Source: Sinohyriopsis cumingii (lineage: Eukaryota; Mollusca; Bivalvia; Unionida; Unionidae). Taken from it: a stretch of DNA of 64,000 bases. The first letter of the stretch is position 1. Every line of letters starts with the position of its first letter. The stretch lies in contig CM068839.1 of the NCBI GenBank assembly GCA_028554795.2, forward strand, positions 40,453,006-40,517,005, in the 5' to 3' direction. A program made the translations under genes and the position numbers. Positions 304 through 59,235 of the stretch are shown piece after piece. Under the pieces are notes generated by a model that saw only the letters and a program-made list of their open reading frames with translations, searched no databases and was not told the origin of the DNA.

Positions 304-1570
304 TCCAAAGTCATCTTGCTATTGCTAAAAGAATTTTCACCAAACCTCAAAAGTGCTTTCTTTTCTTCACCCAATCCCCACTAATGTATTGCCTTAAACT
401 GTCAACTTGCTTCAAAGGAACTCCCCCTATAAGCTTCCTGTTGTCTGAAACAGTATTTGGTTGGTAGGCTTTAATGACACTTTTAGCAAATGATTAGCTA
501 TATTAAAGCCATTAGCTACTGATTACCAGTCTGATGCCACACCAACTAAACTACAACAGCATCCCTTGAAACAGCTCAATGAAAATTATTGTTTCACACA
601 CACCGTATTGCTGTGCAATAGCATCTTCCTCAATCACATAACTGATGAGAACCAGTCTGATGCCAGTTTACTTATCAGCAGCATGGATTAGAGAGGAAAT
701 CTGCTACTATAAATAAGAGTAGCAGCAAACAGCACTGTGTCTGTTCGTCACATGCTACACTAACTTTTGGATATTATTTTCATTTCTTTTTCCATTTCCT
801 GAGAAACAAATTAATTTTAACAACAAGCAAAACAGTAGTGAGATGATTCAGGTTTTAAACATTTCTACATTCAATGTATTCATTTTAAAAAAACAAAAAA
901 CATTTTAACATTTTCAATGGATAACACTTGACCTAAAGAGGACTGACCAGCTTTTGCGAATGGGAGTTTCAGCATGAAGCACGGAGTCACCAAAGGTAGT
1001 ATTTTCAAAAACTTATCTATTCTTGTTGTTTATTTACTCTGTGTCTATAAATGAAACAAATATTCTTCTCTTTAAACACCAAAAACCTCCTTCTTGCAAT
1101 CTCCTTTTAAAGTTATTTCCATGTATTTTTGTAACCCATGAAATGAAATTAATAACAGAAACAGACATTACATTTATAATTGTATATACAATTACATAGT
1201 CTAGCTAGGGTAACTGATGAAAATATCTACATCAGAACTTCAGTTATCCATCACCCTATTAACCGTCAGTCTCTGTTAACCATCAGGGCACTGTACTCCA
1301 AAATATTAAAAACAGGTACATGTACATATGTAGATATTATGATTTTTGGATGAACCTGTCTATTGTATAATACTTTTAATGTACATATTCTGTTACCTGT
1401 CTATTCTCATATCCATCATGGTCTCGGTCCAGCAACTTGATAGATAATCGAAGTTCTACTGTATCTTAAAAAAGCTATACCTTTGCAAATTTGCTGGTGT
1501 ATACATGCTACAAAACTCAGCTCTGCCTTTTCATTATACATCTACAAATCCGTGTCATCAATTTTTATTC
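304..1570. other. No recognisable gene
   Basis: AT-rich non-coding sequence with many stops in all frames. A short motif (CCAGTCTGATGCCA) recurs near 527 and 653. I see no RNA gene or repeat array. Confidence 0.5.
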
Positions 1571-1656
1571 TACTGTACCTGTATATATGAGCACAGACCC
1601 TGATCTGGTAATGCATTAAGCATGGCAGATCAGTGGCATATGCTCTTTGTAGATGG
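1571..1656. mobile_element. Single-hairpin remnant of the double-hairpin foldback family
   Basis: CACAGACCCTGATCTGG, an apex with ATGCATTA, and CATGGCAGATCAG match one internal hairpin of the family best seen at 20751-20959. The outer inverted ends are barely recognisable, so this is a decayed or internally deleted copy. Confidence 0.4.
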
Positions 1657-1860
1657 GTGTTTTTTTTTATACTTTGATAACAATGGCAAATTCATACTGA
1701 TACTGCATCAAGATTCACAAAATAAAAACGTATTCTATATTCCCACTGAAAAAGGAGATAGCTATTTGATTTTTGGTTAATTTTCTAATTACTAATGCTG
1801 GACAAACAAAGTTTCTTTCAAACAGTCACAAGTACACCACAAGCACTATAGAGTAAAAAT

Positions 1861-4200
1861 GATTTAATATATTCATCCATGTAGCTAGCTTGTGTTACAA
1901 ATAAGAGGACTAACACCAATGATTTAATACATTCATCCATGTAGCTAGCTGGTGTTACAAATAAGAGGACTAACACCAATGATTTAATACATTCATCCAT
2001 GTAGCTAGCTGGTGTTACAAATAAGAGGACTAACACCAATGATTTAATATATTCATCCATGTAGCTAGCTGGTGTTACAAATAAGAGGACTAACACCAAT
2101 GATTTAATATATTCATCCATGTAGCTAGCTGGTGTTACAAATAAGAGGACTAACACCAATGATTTAATATATTCATCCATGTAGCTAGCTGGTGTTACAA
2201 ATAAGAGGACTAACACCAATGATTTAATATATTCATCCATGTAGCTAGCTGGTGTTACAAATAAGAGGACTAACACCAATGATTTAATACATTCATCCAT
2301 GTAGCTAGCTGGTGTTACAAATAAGAGGACTAACACCAATGATTTAATACATTCATCCATGTAGGTAGCTGGTGTTACAAATAAGAGGACTAACACCAAT
2401 GATTTAATACATTCATCCATGTAGGTAGCTGGTGTTACAAATAAGAGGACTAACACCAATGATTTAATACATTCATCCATGTAGCTAGCTGGTGTTACAA
2501 ATAAGAGGACTAACACCAATGATTTAATACATTCATCCATGTAGCTAGCTGGTGTTACAAATAAGAGGACTAACACCAATGATTTAATATATTCATCCAT
2601 GTAGCTAGCTGGTGTTACAAATAAGAGGACTAACACCAATGATTTAATACATTCATCCATGTAGCTAGCTGGTGTTACAAATAAGAGGACTAACACCAAT
2701 GATTTAATACATTCATCCATGTAGCTAGCTGGTGTTACAAATAAGAGGACTAACACCAATGATTTAATATATTCATCCATGTAGCTAGCTGGTGTTACAA
2801 ATAAGAGGACTAACACCAATGATTTAATATATTCATCCATGTAGCTAGCTGGTGTTACAAATAAGAGGACTAACACCAATGATTTAATACATTCATCCAT
2901 GTAGGTAGCTGGTGTTACAAATAAGAGGACTAACACCAATGATTTAATATATTCATCCATGTAGCTAGCTGGTGTTACAAATAAGAGGACTAACACCAAT
3001 GATTTAATACATTCATCCATGTAGCTAGCTGGTGTTACAAATAAGAGGACTAACACCAATGATTTAATATATTCATCCATGTAGCTAGCTGGTGTTACAA
3101 ATAAGAGGACTAACACCAATGATTTAATACATTCATCCATGTAGCTAGCTGGTGTTACAAATAAGAGGACTAACACCAATGATTTAATACATTCATCCAT
3201 GTAGCTAGCTGGTGTTACAAATAAGAGGACTAACACCAATGATTTAATACATTCATCCATGTAGCTAGCTGGTGTTACAAATAAGAGGACTAACACCAAT
3301 GATTTAATACATTCATCCATGTAGCTAGCTGGTGTTACAAATAAGAGGACTAACACCAATGATTTAATACATTCATCCATGTAGCTAGCTGGTGTTACAA
3401 ATAAGAGGACTAACACCAATGATTTAATATATTCATCCATGTAGCTAGCTGGTGTTACAAATAAGAGGACTAACACCAATGATTTAATACATTCATCCAT
3501 GTAGGTAGCTGGTGTTACAAATAAGAGGACTAACACCAATGATTTAATACATTCATCCATGTAGCTAGCTGGTGTTACAAATAAGAGGACTAACACCAAT
3601 GATTTAATACATTCATCCATGTAGCTAGCTGGTGTTACAAATAAGAGGACTAACACCAATGATTTAATACATTCATCCATGTAGCTAGCTGGTGTTACAA
3701 ATAAGAGGACTAACACCAATGATTTAATATATTCATCCATGTAGCTAGCTGGTGTTACAAATAAGAGGACTAACACCAATGATTTAATACATTCATCCAT
3801 GTAGCTAGCTGGTGTTACAAATAAAAGGACTAACACCAATGATTTAATACATTCATCCATGTAGCTAGCTGGTGTTACAAATAAGAGGACTAACACCAAT
3901 GATTTAATATATTCATCCATGTAGCTAGCTGGTGTTACAAATAAGAGGACTAACACCAATGATTTAATATATTCATCCATGTAGCTAGCTGGTGTTACAA
4001 ATAAGAGGACTAACACCAATGATTTAATATATTCATCCATGTAGCTAGCTGGTGTTACAAATAAGAGGACTAACACCAATGATTTAATATATTCATCCAT
4101 GTAGCTAGCTGGTGTTACAAATAAGAGGACTAACACCAATGATTTAATATATTCATCCATGTAGCTAGCTGGTGTTACAAATAAGAGGACTAACACCAAT
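1861..4200. repeat. 60-bp satellite, 39 near-identical copies
   Basis: Exactly 39 head-to-tail 60-bp units, each starting GATTTAATAY. Nearly all variation is at two sites: T/C at unit base 10, and GTAGCTAGCT versus GTAGGTAGCT. The G variant appears only on C-type units, at 2341, 2401, 2881 and 3481. Each unit holds an inverted repeat, TGGTGTTA then a 13-nt spacer then TAACACCA, and the 8-bp palindrome AGCTAGCT. The first unit has a base change (TTGTGTTA) that breaks the hairpin arm. Because 60 is divisible by 3, the minus strand is open for 818 codons with a 20-residue period; this is probably not a protein gene. Confidence 0.97.
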
Positions 4201-4235
4201 GAAAAAGTCATGCAAATATTTGCTACATTACAGTC

Positions 4236-5007: not shown

Positions 5008-5556
5008 TATACTCTAGAGAATGGAGGCCCTATCTTTGTGAAGTTATATACACTGGTTCCTTGATACTCAGAGAAAGTAAACCCCTATCCTTGTGACGTT
5101 ACATGGTTAAAATGCACATTGGTACTTTGATACTCGAGAATGGAGGACCTATGGTGAAGTTACAAGCTTAATAAACACATTGGTTCCTTCATTCTCTAAA
5201 GAAGGCAGGCCCTAGCCTTGAAGTTACAAGCTTAATAAACACATTGGTTCCTTGATTCTCTGAAGAAGGCAGGCCCTAGCCTTGAAGTTACAAGCTTAAT
5301 AAACACATTGGTTCCTTGATTATCTAAAGAAGGAAGGCCCTATTCTTGTGCAGTTACAAGCTTAATAAACACATTGGTTCCTTGATTCTCTAAAGAAGGA
5401 AGGCCCTATCCTTGAAGTTACAAGCTAATAAATGCATTGGTTCCTTGATACTCTAAAGAAGGAAGGCCCTATCCTTGTGCAGTTACAAGCTTAATAAACA
5501 CATTGGTTCCTTGATACTCTAAAAAAGGAAGGCCCTATCCTTGAAGTTACAAGCTA
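5008..5556. repeat. Degenerate 61-66 bp minisatellite, about 8 copies
   Basis: Copies are marked by CATTGGTTCCTTGAT near 5117, 5178, 5242, 5306, 5372, 5435 and 5501. Spacing varies because TGC is present or absent in the CCTTGTGCAGTTACAAGC segment. It is clearly related to the more uniform array at 6438-7236. Confidence 0.9.
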
Positions 5557-6437: not shown

Positions 6438-7236
6438 ATATTCACTGGTCCCCTGATACTCTAGAGAAAGAAGGCCTTATCCTTGTGCAGTCACAAGCTT
6501 AATAAACACATTGGTCCCCTGATACTCTACAGAAAGAAGGCCCTATCCTTGTGCAGTCACAAGCTTAATAAACACATTGGTCCCCTGATACTCTAGAGAA
6601 AGAAGGCCCTATCCTTGTGCAGTCACAAGCTTAATAAACACATTGGTTCCCTGATACTCTAGAGAAAGAAGGCCCTATCCTTGTGCAGTCACAAGCTTAA
6701 TAAACACATTGGTTCCCTGATACTCTAGAGAAAGAAGGCCCTATCCTTGTGCAGTCACAAGCTTAATAAACACATTGGTTCCCTGATACTCTAGAGAAAG
6801 AAGGCCCTATCCTTGTGCAGTCACAAGCTTAATAAACACATTGGTCCCCTGATACTCTAGAGAAAGAAGGCCCTATCCTTGTGCAGTCACAAGCTTAATA
6901 AACACATTGGTCCCCTGATACTCTAGAGAAAGAAGGCCCTATCCTTGTGCAGTCACAAACTTAATAAACACATTGGTCCCCTGATACTCTACAGAAAGAA
7001 GGCCCTATCCTTGTGCAGTCACAAGCTTAATAACACATTGGTCCCCTGATACTCTAGAGAAAGAATGCCCTATCCTTGTGCAGTCACAAGCTTAATAAAC
7101 ACATTGGTTCCCTGATACTCTAGAGAAAGAAGGCCCTATCCTTGTGCAGTCACAAGCTTAATAAACACATTGGTTCCCTGATACTCTAGAGAAAGAAGGC
7201 CCTATCCTTGTGCAGTCACAAGCTTAATATACAGAA
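6438..7236. repeat. 66-bp minisatellite, about 12 copies
   Basis: Uniform units run from CACATTGGTCCCCTGATACT to CAGTCACAAGCTTAATAAA, for example CCTTGTGCAG at 6481 and 6547. One unit near 7030 lacks an A. Two segregating forms alternate: GGTCCCC and GGTTCCC. Sister array of 5008-5556. Confidence 0.96.
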
Positions 7237-7355
7237 TGGTCCAAAGATACTTATTCAAGCTGTCTCCTTTTAAGTGAGTGCTCCCTATTTATAATGCTAT
7301 TCATGTGAATGTGTATATAACAATAGTGCACACAGCACCAAAATTGGTTACTTAG

Positions 7356-7635
7356 TCACTGTGTGTGCATGTGATTTGGATTTTCATATCGCTAATATGT
7401 CTGTGCAGTGTGGCAGTTTACAGTGTTGTCTAGCATTGGGGCATCATGTCTCACCCAGTCACATTATCCTGACACCAGGCCAACCAGTCCTAACACTAAC
7501 CTCTTAATGGCAAGCACCTAGCAAGACAGCTGTTATTATCATAATTCTAATTCTTTGGTATGACTCAGCCAAGGTTTGAACCCGTGACATCCCGCATCCA
7601 CAGGGAATGTTCTAACCACTAGGCCACTGCAGCGG
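7356..7635 (-). mobile_element. SINE-A copy 1 (tRNA-derived)
   Basis: On the minus strand the tRNA-like head comes first: a box A-like GTGGCCTAGTGGTTAGAAC, then a box B-like GGGTTCAAACC. The body follows and the copy ends in a GTG/CAC-rich tail. Flanking sequences TTGGTTACTTAG (7344-7355) and TTGGTTATTTAG (7636-7647) form a 12-bp target-site duplication with one mismatch. Related copies lie at 46542, 47637 and 55643. Non-autonomous; RNA polymerase III transcription is inferred from the box A/B matches. Confidence 0.82.
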
Positions 7636-8309: not shown

Positions 8310-8490
8310 TACCATATATCCTTACTTATAAGTTGAGTCCAACTGCACAGACCCAGATCTGATGTTGAATAATGTGCGAGTAGATATGGGTTTATGCACT
8401 TGGTTAGGAGTCATCAATAGAATAAATAAAGACTCTGATCTGCCAGTACATTATGCAGTTGTAGATTAGGGTCAGTGTTGTTTGCCGTAC
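8310..8490 (-). mobile_element. Double-hairpin foldback element, reverse orientation
   Basis: Starts ACCATATATC and CTTATAAGTTGAGTCCAACT. It then has the CACAGACCCAGATCTG hairpin, the linker GGTTAGGAGTCATC and the second hairpin (GACTCTGATCTGCCAGTACA). The far end is truncated. The strand label denotes order of the two hairpins relative to 20751-20959. Confidence 0.75.
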
Positions 8491-12927: not shown

Positions 12928-15661
12928 GTGTATTCAGACTATAACATGTTCTCAACAGTTATTTGGTCAAGATTTCCCCCTCTGTGAATAGTCTTCAGAT
13001 TTCTGGTGATATCATTTCTTCTGTCATGTACTATTTTAAAATCCACTTTGCACAAAACGCCAATGCAAACTCTGGACGTTTGCCATTCACCTGCGTTACT
13101 CTGATTTGCACGCAATTTTTACCCTGCTTTAATATTGTAAGCCAATGGTTGTTAGCAAGGGGGAGAAAACACACATTTCAGCACTTTGATATCAACTGAC
13201 CAGAATAAAATATGAACTGCCCTAAAATATTCCTCTAAAAATGAGAAATACAGCACAAATATAATTAAACAAGCCCCAAAAAATGAACATGCTTTGGCAA
13301 GTGTTTCTGCCAAAATCATGTTTTGGTTGACCTTTCCTTTCTATCTCATCAAGGCTGACAATTTTTTATTAAGGTGACAAGCCATGATGGACCTCCTTTG
13401 ATGCCTTTATTAATTATAACACTTCAATAAACTGGCCTTAAACTCTCCAAATTACAACAGTAAAGTAATCAATTTACAGCTTGTTGTGTACACAAGCCAA
13501 CTTTGTGTAACAATTCCTAATTGGATTAGCAATCACTCAGCATGCATCACTGTACTGGTTGTTGCACTGTTGGAACAGTTCCAGTCCTTGTGACTTCTTG
13601 TGACTGTTTCTGTAATGTGTGGATAGAACATGTAACAACAGTTTCTCAGAATAAAGAATAATAAATCTTTCAATTTTTTTTAAAGCAGTAGAGTTCAACA
13701 ATAAAACAGTACATGCTGCAGATAGTCTTTAAAAGAGTATTCCAGTTTTTTTGTGCTGTGCAAACCATGATGCAATTTTTTTTAAATGTGTCTGTAGCAT
13801 GAGCTTCATGCTGATGTTGATAACACTGGAATCCTGAGCAAATCATGCCTGCCAATGCTTGCAACATATTCCATCTGCCTTCAATTTGCCATTTAGGTCT
13901 TAAACAAAACTGAACAAATATTTTTAAAGAAAACACTAAAGATGATGACATGAAGCTTTTCTATCTTGGCTTTTCTTTCCCTGATATAATTCTGGCCTTT
14001 TTCAGATTTTGTTATCTCTCCAAACTTCAATCAATTCAGAAAAGCTATCTCTGATATCCTAGCACACTGACAAATGAAACAGCTTTCCTTCTGAATCAAT
14101 AGATATAACAGCAAGTTCAACAATACCAACCCTTAAAAAAAGGTCTGTGCCTGGGGGAAATCAATTAGAAAAGATAAAATACTAGCAACTGATCAAAGGT
14201 TTGTGTGATGAGCTCTCCTACGGATGATTCTGTGCATAAAAAGTACTGTTCTACTAATGACTTTGCAATGTATCTACACTGCACACGGTCTGCGAAAAAG
14301 CCACTTGATCTAATGACCCTCTCCCTGCCTCACAAAAAAATGAATATTTCCTTTCAAAATGCAAATTAGAGCTACAGTACTTCTATGGTTCCACATCTCA
14401 AATCCAATTGTTTTATTACATTTTATCACCCACCTTATGCTGAGAACATTGCCAAATCAAATGTATTACACATATTGTCGTCCAGCCATACCTGCATATT
14501 TAATGCTTGATCATTAAGGAGGGGGGGGCCTATTTTTTACAACATGAAAGCCTGTTTTATATTTTTTTATATACAGGGTACCGGTATAAATTTCATCTTT
14601 GATCTCTGCAAAGGACTTCAGGGGAGGGAACCACAAATGATACTGACTTTTGCACATGTTACCATGTGGACAAAGTTTTGTATTAAGTTTAGTCTAATTC
14701 CATCCAGCTATGAGTCACAGATATATGGTTAGATAGATGGGGGGGGGGAAGGATCAAAATACATCCAACAATAAAGTGTAGGAATAGCATGATCTTAAAA
14801 CATTTATGTGAAGTACAACACTGGTGGCTTATCGTGGGGATGAGAAGCATCAGCTGTGAATAAGGAATTAGAATTCTGTCCGTTTTTACTACAATTCTCA
14901 ACTTTTCTCCTTAAATTATGAACCTACATTTTCTTGCTTAAAATACATCAGACCATAGGGTCTCAAACTATTACACACGGTCCACTCGAGGGGTGCAGGT
15001 TTGCCATACAAAAAATTCTACTCTAAAAGGGCTGTGGATGTAATAAGTCTGATAACTACTGCTTTGGACAATATGTGTATCAATAATTTTTGTCTGAGGG
15101 AGAGATAATGGAAATAATTCAAAGTTGCATTTAAGTTTTAAAATTTAACATACTGATGCCTTTTTATTCTTTTAACAAATTTAAGTAATTTCTCATACAT
15201 GAGAAAATATTTAATCTCATGAAAATTATAGGACTGAACATTCTATGACTATATCATGAAGTTTTCAAAGCTGCTAACATGATTTTATTTTTCCTTTTCT
15301 CATGAAACTTCAATTAACTGAAACAAACTTTGTTATCCTCTGTTGCTAAGGCAGCACCAAGATAAACTCTTTTACTATTCATATAACCTAGCTAGTACAT
15401 ATTGTTATAGTAATTCTATCTTTATTGCTAGAACATTGATTTTCTGATGCTTACAACAAGATGTTGTCTAGCATCAAGATCAAATTACTATGATAATTAC
15501 TTTTTTGTTATATACCTATCAATTTTCTGATAATAAAATCCCTATATATGTAGTGGAGAAACAATAGAAACTGCTTAACATTTCAATCTTCGCAATACAA
15601 ATTTCATCTTAAATTATAAACCAAATTAAAAATCAAATTTCACTGGATCAGCTGATACATG
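12928..15661. other. No recognisable gene
   Basis: Contains short G tracts (14520-14529 and 14740-14748) and scattered 60-90 codon frames on both strands without domains. No array, tRNA or hairpin stood out. Confidence 0.5.
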
Positions 15662-16405
15662 CAAGAATATCATGGTTTTATGAATCAATGTGTAAAGCCC
15701 CAGTGTCATTCAAGAATATCATGGTTTTATGAATCAATGTGTAAAGCCCCAGTGCCATTCAAGAATGTCATGGTTTTATGAATCACTGTGTAAAGCCCCA
15801 GTGCCATTCAAGAATGTCATGGTTTTATGAATCACTGTGTAAAGCCCCAGTGTCATTCAAGAATATCATGGTTTTATGAATCAATGTATAAAGCCCCAGT
15901 GCCATTCAAGAATATCATGGTTTTATGAATCAATGTGTAAAGCCCCAGTGCCATTCAAGAATATCTTGGTTTTATGAATCAATGTGTAAAGCCCCAGTGC
16001 CATTCAAGAATATCATGGTTTTATGAATCAATGTGTAAAGCCCCAGTGTCATTCAAGAATATCATGGTTTTATGAATCAATGTGTAAAGCCTCAGTGTCA
16101 TTCAAGAATATCATGGTTTTATGAATCAATGTGTAAAGCCCCAGTGTCATTCAAGAATATCATGGCTTTATGAATCAATGTGTAAAGCCCCAGTGTCATT
16201 CAAGAATATCATGGCTTTATGAATCAATGTGTAAAGCCCCAGTGTCATTCAAGAATATCATGGCTTTATGAATCAATGTGTAAAGCCCCAGTGCCATTCA
16301 AGAATATCATGGTTTTATGAATCAATGTGTAAAGCCCCAGTGTCATTCAAGAATATCATGGTTTTATGAATCACTGTGTAAAGCCCCAGTGTCATTCAAG
16401 AATAT
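15662..16405. repeat. 49-bp minisatellite, about 15 copies
   Basis: Units start CAAGAATATCATGGTTTTAT at 15662 and 15711 and so on. Variable sites include GTGTCATT/GTGCCATT, ATCAATG/ATCACTG and GGTTTT/GGCTTT. Three consecutive GGCTTT units near 16160-16265 show local copying. Confidence 0.96.
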
Positions 16406-16849
16406 GGTCCTACAGAATCAGAAAACATAGGTATAGTTTTCCAACTTCTGGGAAATGACTCTGGCTCTTTTACTGTAGGTATATGAGGAAATTTAATATT
16501 ACTCAGGTCAGTATAGAAACCATATTTACACAAGTACAATGCACATGCAACTATGAACGGCATAAACATGGTTCTGACACTGTGCTGGCAGATCAGGGTT
16601 GGTACAGTTCCCTGAACATCAAAAAGGCAGAAAAAACAGCATCATGCCTGATCTGTCAGTTTATGATGCAAAAACCAAACTGGGAAGACACTGCTTGCAG
16701 TTGGAAGCTCATTCTCCATAATGAACATGTTATAATGACTTTATTTAAAGAGCTTAACACAACTAGCTAAGAACTAATCTGCCTTGAGGTCACCATACAA
16801 AGGAATTTATTTATTTTAGTTGCATCTCTGAAGCCACTGGATATATTGG
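16406..16849. other. Non-coding sequence, possible foldback remnant
   Basis: GCTGGCAGATCAGGGTTGG (about 16591) and GCCTGATCTGTCAG (about 16645) resemble the hairpin arms of the double-hairpin family but the order is broken. A 95-codon frame here has no recognisable domain. Confidence 0.35.
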
Positions 16850-20750: not shown

Positions 20751-20959
20751 TATATACTCACTTATAAGTCGAGTAAAACTGCACAACATAGCTCCTTATC
20801 TGCCGTGGCATAATGCAACTGCCAACCTGAGTTTATGTTCTTTGTTTGACTGATAACTCCTAATAAACTGCACAGACCCAGATCTACCAGAACATTATAT
20901 GACAGAAGATCTGGGTCTGTGCAGTTTGCAGTTGGACTCGTCTTATAAGCAAGTATATA
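20751..20959 (+). mobile_element. Double-hairpin foldback element, best copy
   Basis: The outer inverted repeats (20751-20783 and 20927-20959) pair over 33 bp with about five mismatches and begin TATATACT. Inside are two further hairpins. Hairpin 2 has perfect 21-bp arms, AAACTGCACAGACCCAGATC plus T at 20865-20885 and its complement at 20907-20927, around a 21-nt loop. Hairpin 1 (about 20783-20850) is decayed here. The linker reads TGATAACTCCTAATAAACTG. No protein coding; it would need a transposase in trans. Confidence 0.88.
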
Positions 20960-21043
20960 CAGGCTACCAATAATACATCAAACATGCACACAAAGTTTCT
21001 AAAGCCTACATGGGAAAAATAATATACAAATCAACCATTACCT

Positions 21044-21249
21044 TATGTACTCACTTATAAGTAGAGTCAAACTGCAAACAACAAAGATCTTGATCTCCTG
21101 TTGCATAATGCACCTGCAGATCAGGATTTGTGATGTTTGTTCGACTGATTACTCCTAACAAACTGCACAGACCTAGATCTGCCAGCACATTATTCGATGG
21201 CAGATCTGGGTCTGTGCAATTTGTGTTTGACCTTATAAGTCAGTACATA
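21044..21249 (+). mobile_element. Double-hairpin foldback element
   Basis: The ends are TATGTACTCACTTATAAG and, at the other side, ACTTATAAG..CAGTACATA reading outward. Hairpin 1 has arms TTGATCTCC and GCAGATCAGGA around TGCATAATGCA. Hairpin 2 has CAGACCTAGATCTGCCA and TGGCAGATCTGGGTCTG. The linker ATTACTCCTAACAAACTGCA is intact. Confidence 0.88.
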
Positions 21250-21331
21250 TGGTATCCACATGCAGATAAATTTAACCCCAAACATACACTTTGTCCTACA
21301 GGTCATTATAATCTATCCCATAATAAAATAC

Positions 21332-21541
21332 TATATATACTCCTTTATAGGTTGGGTTTAACTGCAGACAACATAGACCCCGACCAGCCTTCTTGTAATG
21401 CACAAGAAGATCGGGGTTTATATTGCTTGTTGTAATTATTACGCCTAACAAACTGCATAGACCCAGATCTGCTGGAACACTGTGACAGATCTGGGTCTAT
21501 GTTAGTTTGCAGTTGGACCCGATTTATAAGCAAGTATATAT
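21332..21541 (+). mobile_element. Double-hairpin foldback element
   Basis: Third copy in a row, about 290 bp from the second. Ends are TATATATACTCCTTTATAG and its partner GCAAGTATATA. Hairpin 1 carries CATAGACCCCGACCAG and a matching GATCGGGGTTTAT. Hairpin 2 carries GCATAGACCCAGATCTG and CAGATCTGGGTCTATG. Confidence 0.86.
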
Positions 21542-21613
21542 TGCATGTTTTTATATGCTTTAGATATTTTCCCACACGCTGCAATATTCTTGTTAAATTG
21601 ATGTTTATTTGGT

Positions 21614-22795: not shown

Positions 22796-24310
<1,515 letters not shown>

Positions 24311-24383
24311 TCATTATTTTCTCAAGATAAATGTTGAAACTAGAAATATATCCACAGAACTATAATGGCCCAGCCAATAACTG

Positions 24384-24541
24384 TACCATAATGCACTGGC
24401 ACACACTGGTCAACATGGTTTGTTAGAAGCAATAAATAACACAAATAACATAGCACCTTATCTGCCAGAGCATTGTACACTGGCAAATCTGATCGGGATC
24501 TATGTTGTTTGCAGATGGACTGACTATATACAAGTATATTA
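24384..24541 (-). mobile_element. Double-hairpin foldback element, partial
   Basis: Reverse orientation. TACCATA, a degraded first hairpin and the linker GGTTTGTTAGAAGCAATAAA precede a hairpin with TTATCTGCCAGAG and CTGGCAAATCTGATC. The end reads GCAGATGGACTGACTATATA. Confidence 0.7.
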
Positions 24542-26564: not shown

Positions 26565-26737
26565 GTGGGTTTAATGTTATTTTTCATCACATGATAGGTT
26601 TATACATGGCAGCTGGAATATTTGGTCTGAAAAAAAATTAGAAGAATCACCAAGCTGAGACAAAGACAGAGGTGTGAGCTATCAGTGAACTAAAAAGGCA
26701 AGTACCTTTAAGACCACTTGGCCACCCGAGGCCATGA
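26565..26737 (-). mobile_element. SINE-B, old copy with internal loss
   Basis: GGGTTTAATGTTATTTTTCA and CATGGCAGCTGGAAT match the SINE-B 3' region. GACAGAGGTGTGAG and ACCACTTGGCCACCCGAGGC match the tRNA-like head. The middle is replaced or deleted. The 34-bp array starts at its head end. Confidence 0.75.
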
Positions 26738-27481
26738 TATCCAGATTGCAAAACATGTATATTAAGATGGATATCCAGATTGTAAAACATGTATATTTGC
26801 ACTGATATCCAGACTGTAAAACATGTATATTTGCACTGATATCCAGGTTGCAAAACATATATATTAGCATTGATCTCCAGATTGTAAAACATATATATTA
26901 GCACTGATATCCAGATTGTAAAACATGTATATTTGCACTGATATCCAGATTGTAAAACATGTATATTAGCACTGATATCCAGATTGTAAAACATGTATAT
27001 TAGCACTGATATTCAGATTGTAAAACATGTATATTAGCACTGATATCCAGATTGTAAAACATGTATATTAGCACTGATATTCAGATTGTAAAACATGTAT
27101 ATTAGCACTGATATCCAGATTGTAAAACATGTATATTAGCACTGATATCCAGATTGTAAAACATGTATATTTGCACTGATATCCAGATTGTAAAACATGT
27201 ATATTAGCACTGATATTCAGATTGTAAAACATGTATATTAGCATTGATATTCAGATTGTAAAACATGTATATTAACATTGATATCCTGATTGTAAAACAT
27301 GTATATTAACATTGATATCCTGATTGTAAAACATGTATATTAACATTGATATCCAGATTGTAAAGCATGTCCATTAGCATTGATATCCAGATTTTAAATC
27401 ATGGCTATTAATGTGGACATCCAGTTTGTAAAGCATGACTATTTACATTAAAATCCAGATTGTAAAACCAATCAAATAACA
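26738..27481. repeat. 34-bp minisatellite, about 21 copies
   Basis: Units read GCACTGATATCCAGATTGTA then AAACATGTATATTA. Sites vary between ATCC/ATTC, TTTGCA/TTAGCA and ATGT/ATAT, and units become more divergent towards 27480. The array resumes for about one unit beyond the SINE at 27498-27755. Confidence 0.95.
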
Positions 27482-27497
27482 CTGATATCTGGATTGT

Positions 27498-27755
27498 AGT
27501 TGTTGTAGTTGTAGTTGTTGTAGGGTTTAATGCCATTTTTCAGCACACGATAGGCTTTACATGGCAGCCAGTATTAATGGTGGAAGAAGAACTGAGGAAA
27601 ACCCTAGGAAAGAACCACCGACCACGAGAAGCTACTGGCAAGCTTTCTCACATACCCACAACGGCCAAATCTGAAACTTGAACCCACGCAGACAGAGGTC
27701 AGATGGTAGTGATCCATAACGGAGAGTGCTTTAGGCCACTCGGTCACGCGGGGCC
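27498..27755 (-). mobile_element. SINE-B copy inserted into the 34-bp array
   Basis: Full-length copy with a GTTGTAGTTGTAGTTGTTG tail side and head CACTCGGTCACGCGGGGCC. Flanked by CTGATATCTGGATTGT at 27482-27497 and again at 27756-27771. Both flanks carry the rare TCTGG variant of the array unit (normally TCCAG), so this is a true target-site duplication and not two ordinary array units. Confidence 0.92.
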
Positions 27756-27799
27756 CTGATATCTGGATTGTAAAGCATGTCTATTAACACTGAAATCCG

Positions 27800-33710: not shown

Positions 33711-33822
33711 TACCATAATGTTAACATGCAAGTCCAACTGCACTGATCCAGATAATGTGCTAGCAGATCAGGCTCTATGTTGTCTGCAGTTGGGATCAAT
33801 TTATAAGTTAACATATATGGTA
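33711..33822. mobile_element. Short single-hairpin member of the foldback family
   Basis: Bounded by TACCATA (33711-33717) and TATGGTA (ends 33822). It keeps the outer arms AAGTCCAACTGCA and TGCAGTTGGGATC but has only one internal hairpin, apparently a hybrid of hairpin 2 (left arm) and hairpin 1 (right arm). An internal deletion of about 100 bp explains it. Confidence 0.72.
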
Positions 33823-35443: not shown

Positions 35444-36500
35444 CGAGTAAAGGGAATTATTGAACATGAGCTTTGAGAGTACAGACTGAGGAAATCTGTC
35501 AGTGAGTAAAAGGAATTACTGAACATGATCTTTGAGAGTACGGACTGAGGAAATCAGTCAGTGAGTAAAGGGAATTATTGAACATGAGATCTGAGAGTAT
35601 GGACTGAGGAGATCAGTCAGTGAGTAAAGGGAATTATTGAACATGAGTTTTGAGAGTACAGACTGAGGAATTCAGTTGGTGAGTAAAGGGAATTACTGAA
35701 CATGAGCTTTGAGAGTATGGAAATCAGTCAGTGAGTAAAGGGAATTACTGAACATGAGATTTGAGAGTATGGACTAAGGAGATCAGTCAGTGAGTAAAGG
35801 GAATTATTGAACATGAGATTTGAGAGTATGGACTGAGGAAATCAGTTAGTGAGTAAAGAGAATTATTGAACATGAGATTTGAGAGTATGGACTGAGGAAA
35901 TCAGTCAGTGAGTAAAGAGAATTATTGAACATGGGATTTGAGAGTATGGACTGAGGAAATCAGTCAGTGAGTAAAGGAATTATTGAACATGGGATTTGAG
36001 AGTATGGACTGAGGAAATCAGTCATTGAGTAAAGGGAATTACTGAACATGAGACTTGAGAGTATGGACTGAGGAAATCAGTCAGTGAGTAAAGGGAATTA
36101 TTGAACACGAGATTTGAGAGTATGGACTGAGGAAATCAGTCAGTGAGTAAAGGGAATTATTGAACATGAGATTTGAGAGTACAGACTGAGGAAATCAGTC
36201 AGTGAGTAAAGGGAATTATTGAACACGAGATTTGAGAGTATGGACTGAGGAAATCAGTCAGTGAGTAAAGGGAATTATTGAACATGAGATTTGAGAGTAT
36301 GGACTGAGGAAATCAGTCAGTGAGTAAAAGGAATTATTGAACACGAGATTTGAGAGTATGGACTGAGGGAATCAGTCAGTGAGTAAAGGGAATTATTGAA
36401 CATGAGATTTGAGAGTATGGACTGAGGAGATCAGTCAGTGAGTAAAGGGAATTATTGAACATGAGATTTGAGAGTATGGACTGAGGAGATCAGTCAGTAA
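35444..36500. repeat. 59-bp minisatellite, about 18 copies
   Basis: Units start GAGTAAAGGGAATTATTGAA and continue through GAGAGTATGGACTGAGG, for example at 36086 and 36145. One unit near 35720 has lost about 8 bp. Units are more divergent at the left edge. Confidence 0.96.
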
Positions 36501-36812
36501 GTAATTATTTTCATTATGGTCCAGAACAGCATGGGTCATTAAATCAAGCACTGACACAAAAGTAAATCTCATATACATGGTTGTTTCCAAATTTCATTAT
36601 TTCATACAAGAACAAAAACACGTTATCAATATTCCATTATCATGCTTTTAGTTTCCAAAAAGAAGGATGTTAATAGTGGTTTTGCTTTGCTAATCGGGCT
36701 CAACCAGATGAGTTTATTAGGACAATAAAACTAGCAGTATTATCCTAAAAAGATTTTAAAAAAAGAACAACTGATATTATGATTCTAGTTCATTTTACAA
36801 AATCTTGGCTAG
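36501..36812. other. No recognisable gene
   Basis: AT-rich spacer between the 59-bp array and a foldback element. Confidence 0.45.
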
Positions 36813-37020
36813 TACCATATACGCTGAGTCCAACTCAAAGAAGACAGGCCCTGATCTGCCATTACATAAAGCACTGGCAGATCAGGGTATATGTTGTTTA
36901 TTCAACTAATTACTCCTAACAAGCCACAATGACACAGATCTGCCAACACATTATGCAATGGTAGATCTGGATCTATGCATTCTGCTTTTGGTTCTGACTG
37001 GTACATGAATATATACAGTA
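36813..37020 (+). mobile_element. Double-hairpin foldback element
   Basis: Begins TACCATATACGCTGAGTCCA. Hairpin 1 has GGCCCTGATCTGCCA and TGGCAGATCAGGG; the linker is AATTACTCCTAACAAGCC; hairpin 2 has ACACAGATCTGCCAAC and TGGTAGATCTGGATCT. The right outer arm is poorly kept. Confidence 0.82.
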
Positions 37021-38404: not shown

Positions 38405-39601
38405 ATGTCTTCTTTCACAAACAAAATCGACAATATGGCTGATGGTGAAACAGCTATAAGACTGGAAGTGGATCCTGTAAACACAAACGATACCCATGTT
38501 ACTAACTCTTACATCTATCCATACATTTACTGGAATAACTCAGAAATATACAATTACTACCTTCCTTCTGAGGAAATCAGCAGCTCTGAAAACCAGATGC
38601 ATATAGCCCTAGTTTTTCACACCTACTTCACACCAATTTTAATTATCATTGGTGCAGTTGGAAACACCTTAACAATTTTTACACTGCACCGAAAAAACAT
38701 GTGCAACTGGTCTATATGCTACTACGTGACTGTCTATGCTGTTGGGAATATCTTTGTTTTGTTCCTTGCCACTGGTCTAGCTTGGGTAAGTTCCGTGGCG
38801 AACATAAAGTATGTAAGTGATATAACTGACTGGGGCTGCAAGCTGTGGCAGTTTATTCTACGTGTAATAACATATTCTGGTATATGGCTAGTAGTTGCTA
38901 TGATGATTGACCAGTACATTTATATATGGCATCCATTCAAAGTTGGGGTAATGTGCAATGTTTTTATGGCAAAGTTTGCAACAGTGATGATTTTTGTCGG
39001 ACTAATTGTGGTAAGCGTTCATTCCATGTGGACCTTTGAATTGCTGCCTAATGGATGTTACATTCTTCACACACCAAATGACCTTCATGCCCTGATCTGG
39101 CCATGGGTTGCTGTCAGTTTTTACTCATTCATTCCAATTCTGATCCTAATTGTACTGATAATGCTCAATATCTGTGGATTATTCATAAAAAATCCCTGTA
39201 AGAGATCCTCAGCACAACTTCAGTTGCCAGTGGATTTCACATTGTCGGTCCTCGTTCTTGCCGCCCTATTTGTGCTGTTTGTCACCCCTGCTACTATTAT
39301 CCACATTATTGAGTTCACCTTGCCAGTGTCATGGTTGAACCATGCTGACTTTATACAAAAATTTCAAACAGCTAAAATTGTGTGTACTTTTCTTGTGTCT
39401 CTAAACCCTGTGTTAGGCTTCTACATACTGGTTTCCTTTTCCAGTAAGTTTAGATCGGAACTACGTGGTTTCACACTATCATGCTGGCAAGAAGGATCTT
39501 GCTTTAGAAGATTTACCCAAATTTATGAGATGCAAGTCAATTCCAATGGTAGCTCTACTCAGCTAGAATACGAGCACAACTCAGAAACTACTCCACTATA
39601 A
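38405..39601 (+). CDS. Class A (rhodopsin-like) seven-transmembrane G-protein-coupled receptor, intronless, divergent
   Basis: A 398-residue receptor with an extracellular N terminus of about 68 residues carrying sequons N28-D-T and N44-N-S. Seven hydrophobic segments lie near residues 70-94, 104-128, 144-172, 189-211, 229-258, 278-304 and 322-344. Class A landmarks are the GAVGNTLTIF helix 1 motif (N87), C145 at the top of helix 3 with C218 in loop 2 as the likely disulfide, P244 in helix 5 and P295 in helix 6. Helix 7 reads SLNPVLGFYILVSFSSKFR, which aligns best with the NSxxNFxxY...KFR form of invertebrate neuropeptide receptors. Unusual: DRY is DQY (169-171), the helix 2 Asp appears as N115, and the helix 6 Trp is V293. 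The C tail has Cys residues at 360 and 366. Signalling through a G protein at the plasma membrane is the family role; the ligand is unknown. ATG 38405 is the first in-frame start after a TAG; M11 is an alternative. Confidence 0.93.
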   Translation: MSSFTNKIDNMADGETAIRLEVDPVNTNDTHVTNSYIYPYIYWNNSEIYNYYLPSEEISSSENQMHIALVFHTYFTPILIIIGAVGNTLTIFTLHRKNMCNWSICYYVTVYAVGNIFVLFLATGLAWVSSVANIKYVSDITDWGCKLWQFILRVITYSGIWLVVAMMIDQYIYIWHPFKVGVMCNVFMAKFATVMIFVGLIVVSVHSMWTFELLPNGCYILHTPNDLHALIWPWVAVSFYSFIPILILIVLIMLNICGLFIKNPCKRSSAQLQLPVDFTLSVLVLAALFVLFVTPATIIHIIEFTLPVSWLNHADFIQKFQTAKIVCTFLVSLNPVLGFYILVSFSSKFRSELRGFTLSCWQEGSCFRRFTQIYEMQVNSNGSSTQLEYEHNSETTPL

Positions 39602-39847: not shown

Positions 39848-41291
39848 ATAGATTAAATGTGAACATCTCAAAATTATGTAGACTATATTAAATATGGACA
39901 TTTCAACATGGTGTAGACTATATTAAATATGGACATTTCAACATGGTGTAGACTATATTAAATATGGACATTTCAACATGGTGTAGACTATATTAAATAT
40001 GGACATTTCAACATGGTGTAGACTAAACTTGAACATCTCAACATGATGTGGACATCTCAACATCTACTGGACTAGATTAAATGTTAAACATCGCAACATG
40101 ATATGACTGGATTAAATGTTCACATCGCAACATGATATGACTGGATTAAATGTTCACATCACAACATGATATGACTGGATTAAATGTGAAAATCTCAAAA
40201 TTTTTTTGACTATATTAAATATGGACATTTCAACATGATGCAGACTAGATTAAACTTGAGCCTCTCAACATGATGTGGACATCTCAACATCTACTGATTA
40301 AATGTGAACATCTCTAACATGATATGGCTGGATTAAATGTGAACATCACAAAATGATGTGGACTAGATTCAATGTGAACACCACAACATGATGTGGACTA
40401 GATTCAATGTGAACACCACAACCTGACGTAGACTAAATTCAATATGAACACCAAAACCTGATGTGGACTTGATTCAATGTGAACACCACAACCTGATGTG
40501 GACTAGATTCAATGTGAACACCACAACCTGATGTGGACTTGATTCAATGTGAACACCACAACCTGATGTGGACTAGATTCAATGTGAACACCACAACCTG
40601 ATGTGGACTACATTAAATGTGAACACAACATGATGTGGACTAGATAAAAAATGTGAACATATCATGATGTGCATTAGATTAAAAATGAACATCTCAACTT
40701 GATGTGGACTAAATTAAATGTGAACATCTTAACATGATGTGGACTATATTAAATGTGAACATCTCAACATGATGTGGACTATATTAACTGTGAGCATAAC
40801 ATCATGTGAACTAGATTAAAAATGTGAACATCTTAACATGATGTGAACTAGATTAAATGTGAACATCTCAACTTGATGTGGACTATATTAAATGTGAACA
40901 TCTCAACATGATGTGGACTAGATTAAATGTGAACATCTCAACTTGATGTGGACTATATTAAATGTGAACATCTCAACATGATGTGGACTATATTAACTGT
41001 GAGCATAACATCATGTGGACTAGATTAAAAATGTGAACATCTTAACATCATGTGGACTAGATTAAATGTGAACATCTCAACTTGATGTGGACTATATTAA
41101 CTGTGAGCATAACATCATGTGGACTAGATTAAAAATGTGAACATTTTAACATCATGTGGACTAGATTAAATGTGAACATCTCAACATGATGTGGACTGTA
41201 TTAACTGTGAGCATCTTAACATGATGTGGACTAGATTAAAAATGTGAACATCTCAACTTGATGTGGACTAAATTTCCTGTGAGCATCTCAA
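39848..41291. repeat. 35-bp degenerate minisatellite, about 41 copies
   Basis: Units resemble GTGGACTAGATTAAATGTGA then ACATCTCAACATGAT. There are distinct sub-blocks: TATGGACATTTCAACATGG units at 39880-40020, GAACACCACAACCTGATG units at 40370-40610, and ACTGTGAGCATAACATC units at 40780-41150. It starts about 250 bp after the receptor stop codon. Confidence 0.93.
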
Positions 41292-42037
41292 CAAGAACAG
41301 GATAATTCATCATAATGTGCTGAATATTGGCACACTCTTGTAAATACAATTTCCATTCCACCTCTAAAAATGCAACTGGGTTCAGAACGACTACAGACTA
41401 TTTAGCAAAATGTCTGCTTTGAAACTGTTTGATGATGACATACTTTTTCATAATTAAATTGAAATTTCTGCCTAAAACTGTTCTATTGAATTTGCCATGT
41501 TCTTTAAAAGTTTTTTTCTTTCAATCTTTCTGTGACTACACTCTCATTCATCAGCTGTAACCATCCATGATAATAAAATCTGAATCTCATATCAGGTTGT
41601 TCTTGCTATTACCGATTAGGAAATGTTGTGAATCAATAATTCCTACTCATGATATTATTAATTTCAAGCAAGAAGATATCCCAATTTTACCAAGCTGGCA
41701 TTTTCTTTATCCAGACAGTGAACAATTGCAAGCTTAAAGTAAAAAGCTTTAATATTAACCTTAATCAAATGTGTAGAAGGATGTACCATACGTAGACATG
41801 CATACAGGCATCCCAATGTTGAGCTTCCACCAAGACAAGCTTGACAAAACTCCAGTACAAATGTTCACTGCTATGCAAGGCAAACATGAGCTGATCTAAA
41901 ATCCATGAAAAACTCTCCAGCTCATGAAGAAAGTGAGAGGCTTGCCTGGTCTGAGTTGACTTTCTTTCCCTATTACTGAATCTCGTACAAGTTGTCTGAT
42001 ACTGTGATTCTGTTTCAATCATGATATATACTTCCTG
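41292..42037. other. No recognisable gene
   Basis: AT-rich non-coding sequence; nothing supported. Confidence 0.45.
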
Positions 42038-42052
42038 AAAACAAAGCATTAT

Positions 42053-42303
42053 GTTGTTGTTGTTGTTGTTGTTGTAGGGTTTAACGCCATTTTTCAGCAC
42101 ACGATAGGCTATACATGGTGGCCAGTATTAATGGTGGAGGAAGAACCTGGGTAAACCCCGGAAAGTACTACCGACCCACGAGAAGCTACTGACAAGCTTT
42201 CTCACATACCCACATTAGCCGAATCCAAGACTCGAACCCACATAGACAGAGGTGAGATGTCAGTGATCCATAAAGGAGAGCGCTTTAGACTACTCGGGGC
42301 CTC
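42053..42303 (-). mobile_element. SINE-B, full-length copy with perfect target-site duplication
   Basis: Plus-strand reading runs from GTTGTTGTTGTTGTTGTTGT to ACTACTCGGGGCCTC. On the minus strand the head is tRNA-like with box A GAGTAGTCTAAAGCGCTCTC and box B TGGGTTCGAGTCTTGG. It is flanked by AAAACAAAGCATTAT at 42038-42052 and 42304-42318, a perfect 15-bp duplication. The 3' end GGCGTTAAACCCTAC plus (AAC)n may be shared with a partner LINE; none is visible here. Confidence 0.95.
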
Positions 42304-46541: not shown

Positions 46542-46933
46542 GTGTGTGTGTGTGTATAAGTGCGCATGTGTGTGTGTGTGTGTGTGTTAAGTGTGTCTGT
46601 GTGTGTCTGTATGTGTGTGTGTGTGTGAGAGATTTCGATTTTTAACATAGCTTTAAAACATTTTCAGTCATATCGCTACGATGTCTGCAGAGTGGCAGTT
46701 TATAGTGAAGTCTAACGCTGGGGCTACACCACAGACATCAAGCATCATGTCCCACCTAGTCACATTATCATAACACCTTAGGCTGACAATTCCTAACACT
46801 AACCTCTTAATGTTGAGTGCCAGGAGAGGCAGCTGCTAGTATCATTTTTGTAAGTCCTTAATATGACTCGGCTCTGGTTTGAACCCATGACCTCCTGCAT
46901 TTGAGGCAGATGCTCTAACCACTAAAGTCAACA
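46542..46933 (-). mobile_element. SINE-A copy 2
   Basis: The (TG)n-rich block 46542-46628 is the CA-type tail on the minus strand. The body shares GTCTGCAGAGTGGCAGTTTA and CACCTAGTCACATTATCAT with the other copies. The box B-like block is GGTTTGAACCCATGACC in plus reading. A short duplication AAACAGT (46535-46541 and 46934-46940) probably marks the target site. Confidence 0.82.
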
Positions 46934-47636: not shown

Positions 47637-48041
47637 AAGTGTGTGTTTGGGATTTTTAATGTAGCTTTAACAGTATTTTTAAGCATATCACTACGATGTC
47701 TGCAGTGTGACAGTTTATAGTCATGTCTAGCACTTGGGCACCATGTGGCAGACATATAGCATGATGTCCCATCCAGTCACATTATCCTGACACCAGGCCG
47801 ACCAGTCCTAACACTAACCTCTTAATGCTGAACGCCAAGTCACATTATCATTACACAACAAGTCAACAAGTATTACACAACAAGTCAACAAGTATTACCA
47901 CTAACCTCTTAATACTGAGCGCCAAGCAAGGCAGCTGCAAATACCAATTTTATAAATCTTTGGTATAACTCGGCTGGGGTTTGAACCCATGACCTCCCGC
48001 ATCCAGGGCTGACACTCTAACCACAAGGCTACCAGAGCGGT
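47637..48041 (-). mobile_element. SINE-A copy 3, with internal expansion
   Basis: Same body and head as the other SINE-A copies. It is about 100 bp longer because short blocks (ACAACAAGTCAACAAGTATT) are duplicated near 47855-47900. Flanked by the 13-bp duplication TTCAAAATCTGAT at 47623-47635 and 48042-48054. Confidence 0.88.
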
Positions 48042-48619: not shown

Positions 48620-48815
48620 AACCATATAAAATTGATTATAAACTCCACATACCCAGATCTGTCCAATGCATTATGCAGTGGCAGATCTGGGTTGGTGCAG
48701 TTTGTTAGGAGTGATCAGTAGAACAAATGACATATTCTGATGTGGAGGTGCATTATGCTATGGCATATCAGAATCTCTGTTGGCAGTTTGCATTGACTTA
48801 TTAGTACAGATGGTA
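48620..48815 (-). mobile_element. Double-hairpin foldback element, reverse orientation
   Basis: Starts ACCATATAAA and ends TGGTA. Hairpin 2 reads ACCCAGATCTGTCCA, GCATTATGC, GTGGCAGATCTGGGT. The linker is TTTGTTAGGAGTGATCAGTA. Hairpin 1 is degraded (TATTCTGATGTGGAGGTGCA). Confidence 0.8.
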
Positions 48816-49027: not shown

Positions 49028-49040
49028 ATATATATATATA
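48997..49040. repeat. (TCTG)n(TC)n(TA)n microsatellite
   Basis: A compound simple repeat that runs into the TA-rich terminus of the next foldback element. Confidence 0.93.
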
Positions 49041-49250
49041 TTCACTTACAAGTTGAATTGAACTGTAAACAACAAAGATTCTGATCTGCTGTAGCTTAAT
49101 GTACCTGTCAATCAGGGTCTATATTGTTTGTTCCACTGATTTCTCCAAACAAACTGCACAGACCCAGATCTGCTGGTGAATTATGCAACATCAGATCAGG
49201 GTCTGTTCAGTTTGCAGTAAGACTCAACTTGTAAGCTAGCATATATGGTA
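49037..49250 (+). mobile_element. Double-hairpin foldback element
   Basis: Left arm TTCACTTACAAGTTGAATTG and right arm AGACTCAACTTGTAAG with terminal TATATGGTA. Hairpin 1 has GATTCTGATCTGCTG and CAATCAGGGTCTAT. The linker is TTTCTCCAAACAAACTGCA. Hairpin 2 has CACAGACCCAGATCTGC and ATCAGATCAGGGTCTG. Confidence 0.85.
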
Positions 49251-49397: not shown

Positions 49398-49648
49398 GTT
49401 GTTGTTGTTGTGGGGTTTAACGCCATTGTTGAGCACACAGTAGGCTATACATAGCAGCCAGTATAAATGGTGGAGGAAGAACCCGGGAAAACCTCCGGAA
49501 AAAACCACCGACCCACGAGAAGCTACTGGCAAGCTTTCTCACATACCCACATTGGCCAAATCCGAGACTCGAACCCATGCAGACAGAGGTGAGATGGCAA
49601 TGATCCATATCAGAGAGCGCTTTAGATCACTTGGCTACTCATGGCCCC
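49398..49648 (-). mobile_element. SINE-B, full-length copy
   Basis: GTTGTTGTTGTTGTGGGGTT to the head GGCTACTCATGGCCCC (plus reading). The probable target duplication CTTTAATGCAGTC (49385-49397) recurs with a 2-bp insertion at 49649-49663. The head keeps box B as ACTCGAACCCATGC (plus reading). Confidence 0.93.
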
Positions 49649-54259: not shown

Positions 54260-54504
54260 TTTTTGTTGTGAGGGTTTAACACCACTTTTCAGCACAAGAT
54301 AGGCTATACATGGCAGCCATTATTAATGGTGGAAGAACCCGGGAAAACCCCGGAAAGAACCACCGACCCACGAGAAGCTACTGGCAAGCTTTCTCACATA
54401 CCTACATTGGCCGAATCCGAGACTCAAACCCATGCAGACAGAGGTGAGATGGCAGTGATCCGTAACGGAGAGCACTTTAGACCACTCGGCCACTCAAGGC
54501 CCCA
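54260..54504 (-). mobile_element. SINE-B, full-length copy with perfect target-site duplication
   Basis: Flanked by ATACTTGCAATGA at 54247-54259 and 54505-54517, a perfect 13-bp duplication. On the minus strand the head reads GAGTGGCCGAGTGGTCTAAA, strongly reminiscent of tRNA-Leu/Ser box A, with box B ATGGGTTTGAGTCTCGG. The AAC tail is short here. Confidence 0.95.
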
Positions 54505-55643: not shown

Positions 55644-55683
<40 letters not shown>

Positions 55684-55990
55684 TTTGGATTTTTAATGTA
55701 ACTTTAAAAAAATTTCAGTCATATCACAACAATGTCTGCAGTGTGGCAGTTTATAGTGATGTCTAGCACTAGGGCATCATGCCGCAGACACGTAGCATGA
55801 CGACCCACCTAGTCACATTATCCTGACACCAGACTGACCAGTCCTAACACTAACCACTTAATGCCGAGTGCCAAGTGAGGCAGCTGTTAGTAACATTTTT
55901 GTAAGTCTTTGGTATGACTCAGCTGGAGATCGAACCCACGACCTCCTGCATCCAAGGCAGATGCTGTAACCACAAGGCAACCAGAGCAGT
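55643..55990 (-). mobile_element. SINE-A copy 4
   Basis: (TG)n at 55647-55682 forms the tail. The body has GTCTGCAGTGTGGCAGTTTA and CACCTAGTCACATTATCCTG. The head has box A GTTGCCTTGTGGTTACAGC and box B GTGGGTTCGATCTCC on the minus strand, the best-preserved box B of the four copies. A target duplication is not clear. Confidence 0.85.
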
Positions 55991-58851: not shown

Positions 58852-59060
58852 TCGTATATACTCACATACAAGTCGAATCCTACTGCAAACTTCATAAACT
58901 CAGATCTACCATCATATAATGTATGAGTCAATGCAGTTTGTGAGGAGTAATCTATAAAAGAAACAACACAGACCCTGATCTGCCAGTGCATTATGCAATA
59001 GAATATCAGGGACTATGCTGCTTGCAGTTGGATCCATCTTATGAATGAGTATCTATGGTA
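58852..59060 (-). mobile_element. Double-hairpin foldback element, reverse orientation
   Basis: TATATACTCACATACAAGTC at the left, and TTGGATCCATCTTATGAATG at the right, ending TATGGTA. The linker is GTTTGTGAGGAGTAATCTAT. Hairpin 1 has AGACCCTGATCTGCCAGTGC and a partner with TATCAGGGACTAT. Hairpin 2 is eroded. Confidence 0.82.
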
Positions 59061-59235
59061 CTAGTCATTCAATTCTATACTTTACCTGCAAACAACACCA
59101 AGTCTCAACAGCAGAAAACAGAAACCCAGAATTGTCAATGCATGATGTGCCAGCAAATCATGGTCCAAATTGTTTGCTTGAATTCAAAATAGAAAGAATA
59201 GTATAGACTTAGATCTGTGCCATTCAGAAATAGGT

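Follow-up and report, generated by a model that had tools for sequence, protein, structure and literature searches.

A palindromic-armed MITE family of Sinohyriopsis cumingii, probably moved by a Tc1/mariner-type transposase

The stretch of 64,000 nucleotides from the genome of the bivalve Sinohyriopsis cumingii that was analysed here (the window) contains, at 20751-20959, a unit of about 210 bp in which inverted outer ends enclose two hairpins. The locus raises the question of what kind of element this unit represents, and whether its hairpins have a role of their own. A preliminary description of the sequence had proposed a Foldback transposon family built of three nested inverted repeats, with an internal duplication of a palindromic monomer at its origin.

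Copies in the window and in the host genome

A profile of five copies was used as the first search model. It matched 20751-20959, 21044-21249, 21334-21540 and 49035-49245 (plus strand) and 58855-59055 (minus strand), together with truncated copies. A later profile was built from 39 genomic copies and, at a cut-off of E<=1e-3, yielded 13 non-overlapping loci in the window, of which five are of full length and eight are partial or degenerate. This number is close to the 11 copies counted earlier and, with further copies across the host assembly, it confirms that the repeat family is real. Loci occur on both strands, as previously described; since the element is nearly palindromic, the orientation of each copy rests on a difference in score. 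The loci and their main parts are as follows:

20751..20962, plus strand: full-length MITE copy (profile 215.5 bits; DNA fold z -8.2)
20865..20927, plus strand: hairpin 2 of the 20751 copy, an inverted repeat with arms 20865-20885/20907-20927 (21 nt, 100%)
21040..21253, plus strand: full-length MITE copy, fold well kept (profile 208.6 bits; DNA fold z -10.0)
21074..21140, plus strand: hairpin 1 of the 21040 copy (predicted fold)
21158..21224, plus strand: hairpin 2 of the 21040 copy, arms 21158-21184/21198-21224 (27 nt, 93%)
21039-21061/21232-21254: outer inverted repeat around the 21040 copy (23 nt, 91%)
21330..21543, plus strand: full-length MITE copy with a private palindrome, 21389-21409, in hairpin 1 (profile 151.2 bits)
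49034..49249, plus strand: full-length MITE copy, its left end lying in a TA microsatellite (profile 193.5 bits; flank read)
58852..59059, minus strand: full-length MITE copy (profile 139.5 bits)
36814..37019, plus strand: MITE copy, left end with a deletion (profile 136.6 bits)
8311..8488, minus strand: left-truncated MITE copy (profile 126.3 bits)
48639..48810, minus strand: MITE copy, right end damaged (profile 126.5 bits)
24381..24539, minus strand: truncated MITE copy (profile 67.8 bits)
33736..33821, plus strand: short derivative, one hairpin fused to the right end (profile 41.3 bits)
1510..1657, plus strand: degenerate MITE copy (profile 41.8 bits)
16535..16705, minus strand: degenerate MITE copy (profile 31.4 bits)
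59106..59217, strand undecided: degenerate MITE copy (28.9 bits on plus versus 29.4 bits on minus)

None of the stop-to-stop frames of at least 120 aa overlaps any of the five full-length window copies. Elsewhere in the window, a single 398-aa open frame at 38405-39601 belongs to the rhodopsin receptor family, and its best matches among sequences of solved structures are neurotensin receptors.

The host assembly (2.9 Gb) was searched with the 20751 copy, as had been advised, and 4,600 first-look candidates were obtained. Forty matches were scored, each spanning at least positions 11-201 of the 209 in the query. At 5 of the 39 other places, which were fetched, a second match to the element lies within about 500 bp (L003, L034, L038, L039 and, weakly, L030). 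Abundance was estimated from a random sample of 20 stretches of 10 kb from 14 contigs (200,000 bases, including 2,954 N). The profile found four copies in this sample and none in a decoy consisting of the same sequence backwards. By proportion, the genome would hold approximately 59,000 copies, a figure with a wide margin as it rests on four copies. The 13 loci in the 64 kb of the window amount to a density about 10 times that of the random sample, but the window was picked because of these copies. A MITE family of such abundance aids the annotation of the host animal's genome.

Three neighbours on the same strand, at 20751, 21040 and 21330, start 289 and 290 bp apart. Tandem duplication of this trio is not favoured, since resemblance between the linkers is not clear and the first copy is closer to relatives elsewhere. 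The linkers gave a score of 14.5, which was reached by 61 of 500 shuffles but slightly exceeds the 95% point for random pieces of the window, 14.0. The 20751 copy is 81-83% identical to the 39 other places in the genome versus 79% to the neighbouring copy. The three copies look like separate insertions.

Mean divergence from the consensus was 15.6% in 14 copies selected by their ends, 17.5% in the five full window copies, and 29.2% in one random copy. The value of 11.6% for another 41 copies is biased low, because their loci had been picked for resembling the window copy. The copies are old and non-coding and belong to an unremarkable type of mobile element, whose neat structure is apparently decaying. 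Two further dispersed repeats were noticed in the window. The second repeat, of about 300 bp, lies at 46615-46921, 47639-47839, 55666-55972 and 7384-7618, and also in the fetched loci L007, L014, L019 and L036. The third, of about 250 bp, lies at 23976-24186, 27508-27756, 42058-42297, 49398-49648 and 54260-54503; it reaches 93% identity with part of L020 and is therefore perhaps younger than the MITE.

Anatomy of the element and its competing folds

A consensus was derived from 61 of 84 copies; the remaining 23 were left out as their matches stopped more than about 12 positions short of one end or both, and 41 of the 61 rows come from the loci chosen by similarity to the window copy. This consensus is 221 bp long and reads TACCATATATACTC...GAGTATATATGGTA, with TACC at its start and GGTA at its end. 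The consensus of 39 copies starts with TACCATATATACTCACTTATAAGTCGAGTC and ends with its near complement. The outer inverted ends are thus conserved across copies, as the preliminary description held, but their extent had been underestimated: the ends noted there make up no more than the first third of terminal inverted repeats, each about 103 bp long, which include the hairpins and are separated by about 15 bp. When the left 103 bp of the 61-copy consensus were compared with the reverse complement of the right 103 bp, 83 of the 103 positions were equal and no gap was needed. In the 39-copy consensus, the inverted alignment of left and right scored 101, whereas the best of 300 single-letter shuffles reached 31.

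The consensus contains one hairpin at 37-101 (26 pairs) and another at 121-185 (28 pairs), each a palindrome of about 65 bp, and an outer stem in which 1-33 pairs with 189-221 (30 pairs). Both related hairpins and the outer pairing are therefore present as described, and the arms of these inverted repeats were located in window copies. All three pairings of the supposed three nested inverted repeats exist, but one inverted repeat with palindromic arms is the better account of them. Since the two halves match gapless over 103 bp, the simplest view is that each hairpin is part of one arm of a single long terminal inverted repeat, and the internally palindromic nature of each arm would produce the nested look.

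A shorter palindromic element, two tandem or inverted copies of which were fused and spread as a dimer, might also have given rise to this structure. The two hairpins are themselves palindromes, their direct and inverted alignments score equally on the consensus (45 and 45), and the direct alignment is better in 10 of 39 single copies. Moreover, copies with a single hairpin exist, namely 33736-33821 in the window and L072. However, the inverted alignment is better in 28 of the 39 copies (one is equal), the gapless homology between the halves runs from the hairpins through to the outer ends, and L072, judged by eye, resembles a deletion that joined parts of both hairpins. A dimeric origin is rather unlikely, and the claim of an internally duplicated palindromic monomer is not supported; one long inverted repeat with palindromic arms remains the simplest description.

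One MITE copy, L070, carries at 122-269 a tandem array of a 43-bp unit (3.4 copies, 95% matches) that consists of the linker between the hairpins together with the left arm of hairpin 2. This array is a minisatellite seeded by a transposon copy. Minisatellite arrays also occur in the window (1858-4202, 15658-16405, 26735-27468, 35445-36504, 40296-41293 and 56290-57436), where 39 near-identical 60-bp units lie inside one 830-aa stop-to-stop frame. The arrays at 5050-5555 and 6446-7242, about 900 bp apart and with units of about 64-66 bp, look related by eye. Derivation of the window minisatellites from the MITE was rejected, the best match among 18 arrays reaching only E 0.049.

Long inverted ends, a fold-back structure, rearranged copies, and one internal tandem amplification (that of L070) are features that the element shares with FB, Galileo, and Tetris. 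In a true Foldback-type transposon of this sort, the ends are long and modular and mobility depends on the fold-back structure. The present element does fold back, and its ends are long for its size (each takes up 103 of the 221 bp). The ends of Tetris hold internal repeats of about 220 bp (PMC4079207). Tandem modules of the ends, as the available text on Tetris (PMC4079207) and Galileo (PMC4168063) presents them, were not seen by eye in the consensus ends, and the only internal array noticed is that of L070. The element is also compact: alignments of the 39 genomic copies to the first profile extend over about 198-212 bp, and 61 copies reach both ends of the 221-bp model. The element agrees with a MITE in its size, its TA sites, and its copy number; a Foldback element in the strict sense is not favoured, and we consider it very unlikely. 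The earlier assignment was sound in so far as the family is transposon-like, with conserved inverted ends and related hairpins, but the name Foldback in its strict sense does not apply, as tandem modules were not seen.

Because each arm of the inverted repeat is palindromic, a single strand has two competing folds, a three-way junction and a single long hairpin. Folding is much stronger than in dinucleotide shuffles: the fold z was -8.2 (20751) and -10.0 (21040) as DNA and -11.9 (21330) as RNA. Across 61 copies, with 30 dinucleotide shuffles each and RNA parameters, the median was -9.7 and the weakest value was -4.8. With RNA parameters, the energy of the consensus was -135.0 kcal/mol for the three-way junction versus -119.7 kcal/mol for the single long hairpin. 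The three-way fold was better in 37 of the 61 copies, and the long hairpin was equal or better in the other 24; by a separate criterion, all three stems were present in 38 of 61 minimum-energy folds. The three-way fold that had been predicted is hence possible but not unique.

Target site, relatives and the search for a mover

TA adjoins the CC/GG of the element ends, and the dinucleotide is identical on both sides in 24 of 39 copies. Alignment of these 39 copies for exact ends and target duplications, another check that had been recommended, gave TA at the ends and no clear duplication longer than TA at any tested offset or length from 1 to 10. A letter-matching test at the flanks gave 58 observed versus 55.3 expected, and a duplicated TA and a terminal TA of the element itself are indistinguishable by this test. 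A search with 46 joined-flank queries (from 84 copies) against 344 kb of genome sequence revealed no empty site. The element appears to insert at TA, and this TA would be either a duplicated target or the element's own terminal bases.

At 221 bp, the element lies below 600 bp and is too short for a transposase; it has terminal inverted repeats, many copies, and a uniform size, all of which are characteristic of a MITE. The reading that we regard as very likely right is therefore that of an old family of MITEs, similar to human MER53 and MADE1, whose mobility probably came from a Tc1/mariner-type transposase, with the superfamily of the transposase taken from insertion at TA alone. Copies would be spread in a cut-and-paste manner by a TA-specific (Tc1/mariner-type) transposase that is supplied in trans and would recognise the outer part of the ends.

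Plant Stowaway MITEs likewise have a TA target, are AT-rich, and form hairpins, whereas their ends begin with CTCCCTCC and those of the present family with CCATATATACTC. MADE1 is a simple palindrome of about 80 bp, in contrast to the 221 bp with nested palindromes found here. By its description, MADE1 is otherwise similar, being a palindromic human MITE that is the source of miR-548 and may form an imperfect stem-loop RNA (PMC3742188). MER53 is a non-autonomous, mariner-related human transposon and the source of miR-1302, with a 193-bp consensus, TA duplications, and a palindromic stem-loop (PMC2996404, PMC3742188). It resembles the present element in size, terminal inverted repeats, TA, palindromic form, and non-coding nature, this being a comparison of descriptions and not of sequences. 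The available text describes MER53 as a palindromic stem-loop and does not there mention palindromes within each inverted repeat.

Short strings of the element were not found in the full text of the papers covered, though papers rarely print such strings. Among the papers listed on MITEs of molluscs, bivalves, and mussels and on nested, three-way, or long-ended MITEs, none describes the element in its title or the start of its abstract. The family is perhaps a new member of a known MITE type and perhaps lacks a name.

An autonomous element with the same ends was looked for, in line with the preliminary description; neither such an element nor a transposase with these ends was found among the end-pattern matches and pogo/Tigger-type stretches described below. 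A degenerate 31-bp pattern of the end had 175 exact matches in the genome, compared with 0 for the pattern backwards. Among the 100 matches listed of these 175, no inverted end pairs 1-5 kb apart were seen by eye. All 20 of the end-pattern places that were fetched (contigs C1-C7, 271 bases) are copies of the MITE, some with deletions.

Elements with a DDE_1 domain (pogo/Tigger) are abundant in the host genome, at no fewer than 150 places. In the six stretches that were read, inverted ends begin with CAGT in four and with CACCGCTCCC in one, and the sixth has no long-range pair. TA adjoins several of these ends, as in the MITE, but the ends themselves differ from CCATATATACTC. The MITE end profile gave nothing above noise on the six stretches, and pogo/Tigger was rejected as the source on these six of at least 150 places, as no ends like CCATATATACTC occur in them. 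Several DDE_1 places, for example C1:82902907, C2:69470076, and C14:7556297, have equal scores and 599-aa open frames. Recent activity of pogo/Tigger-like elements is suggested.

Parvovirus-like ends adopt a T-shaped fold, in which an outer stem bears two side hairpins. The outer stem and two side hairpins of the present element resemble such ends, and a single-stranded DNA virus might have left solo terminal repeats that were captured and then spread. However, the conserved inverted ends, their position at TA, and a copy number estimated at tens of thousands indicate transposition; the linker and end patterns had no exact match in IMG/VR, and phage records searched at the DNA level gave none. 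A viral origin is hardly credible. The exact pattern had no match in GTDB contigs.

Hairpin arms before and after insertion

Co-variation between hairpin arms was assessed in 61 copies with 1,000 permutations. Compensated changes numbered 10 versus 8.5 expected in hairpin 1, 26 versus 21.1 in hairpin 2, and 37 versus 35.1 in the terminal inverted repeat. Paired cells were as high in 24 of 1,000 permutations for hairpin 2 and in 21 of 1,000 for five spacer pairs, and for the outer stem the double changes were as high in 37 of 1,000. In the set of 39 copies, 38 double changes were observed in the outer stem versus 31.0 expected (29 of 500 as high), and no excess appeared in either hairpin. A separate co-variation tool, applied to 31 copies, gave 87.3% paired cells versus 87.1% after shuffling (77 of 500 as high), and 10 of the 19 doubly changed pairs were in the outer stem. 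The other four measures of this tool were reached by 25-33 of 500 shuffles, values that relatedness alone can yield.

Because relatedness alone can raise co-variation measures, the high values are read as hidden subfamilies, although a weak structural signal may contribute. The arms of the hairpins decay nearly independently once inserted. For this reason, a strong fold in the consensus of a repeat need not imply selection on the fold of each copy. No known RNA family was matched in the window at Rfam gathering scores.

The consensus bears on what kept the arms matched in the progenitor. Of 32 arm positions, 22 show a single base throughout the four arms, 4 carry no information, and 6 are split two versus two. 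Four of these six group by hairpin, one by inverted repeat, and one directly. In the stem, all three of the two-versus-two positions group by hairpin, that is, the two arms are equal and the other hairpin differs, and two of the three are adjacent.

Such matching could mean that the nested hairpins were functional and selected in the progenitor, for transposase assembly, single-strand replicative amplification, or small RNA. The lower energy of the three-way fold in the consensus, the agreement of all three stem positions within hairpins, and the high measures for paired cells in hairpin 2, for the spacer, and for double changes in the outer stem would be in keeping with this explanation. Yet compensated changes are not clearly above expectation, paired cells barely exceed the shuffled value, the single hairpin does at least as well in 24 of 61 copies, and template switching matches arms without any function. 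We consider functional hairpins unlikely. It is decidedly improbable that the palindrome within the inverted repeat is the working part, with the three-way single strand selected for amplification, which would proceed for example by replication of a folded excised strand, or for feeding small-RNA production. The role of the hairpins in transposition or RNA production that had been put forward thus gains little support, as the arms barely co-vary after insertion.

Published work reports that template switching during replication both gives rise to hairpins and preserves them (PMC8794818) and that it homogenises the arms of inverted repeats (PMC8604942), and function therefore need not be invoked. 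In the old MITE family favoured here, the palindrome arms of the progenitor may have been kept matched by replication template switching within the hairpin and not by hairpin function. The grouping by hairpin is a suggestive but not strong sign of template switching, and its support is thin. With, by extrapolation, tens of thousands of palindromes, the family provides a natural test bed for counting template-switch correction of hairpin arms. Single copies also hold palindromes of their own: the 21330 copy has a private 8-bp palindrome at 21389-21409 (two of its motifs were absent from the rest of the 86 records examined), and in L038 the tip of hairpin 2 bears a perfect 9-bp stem.
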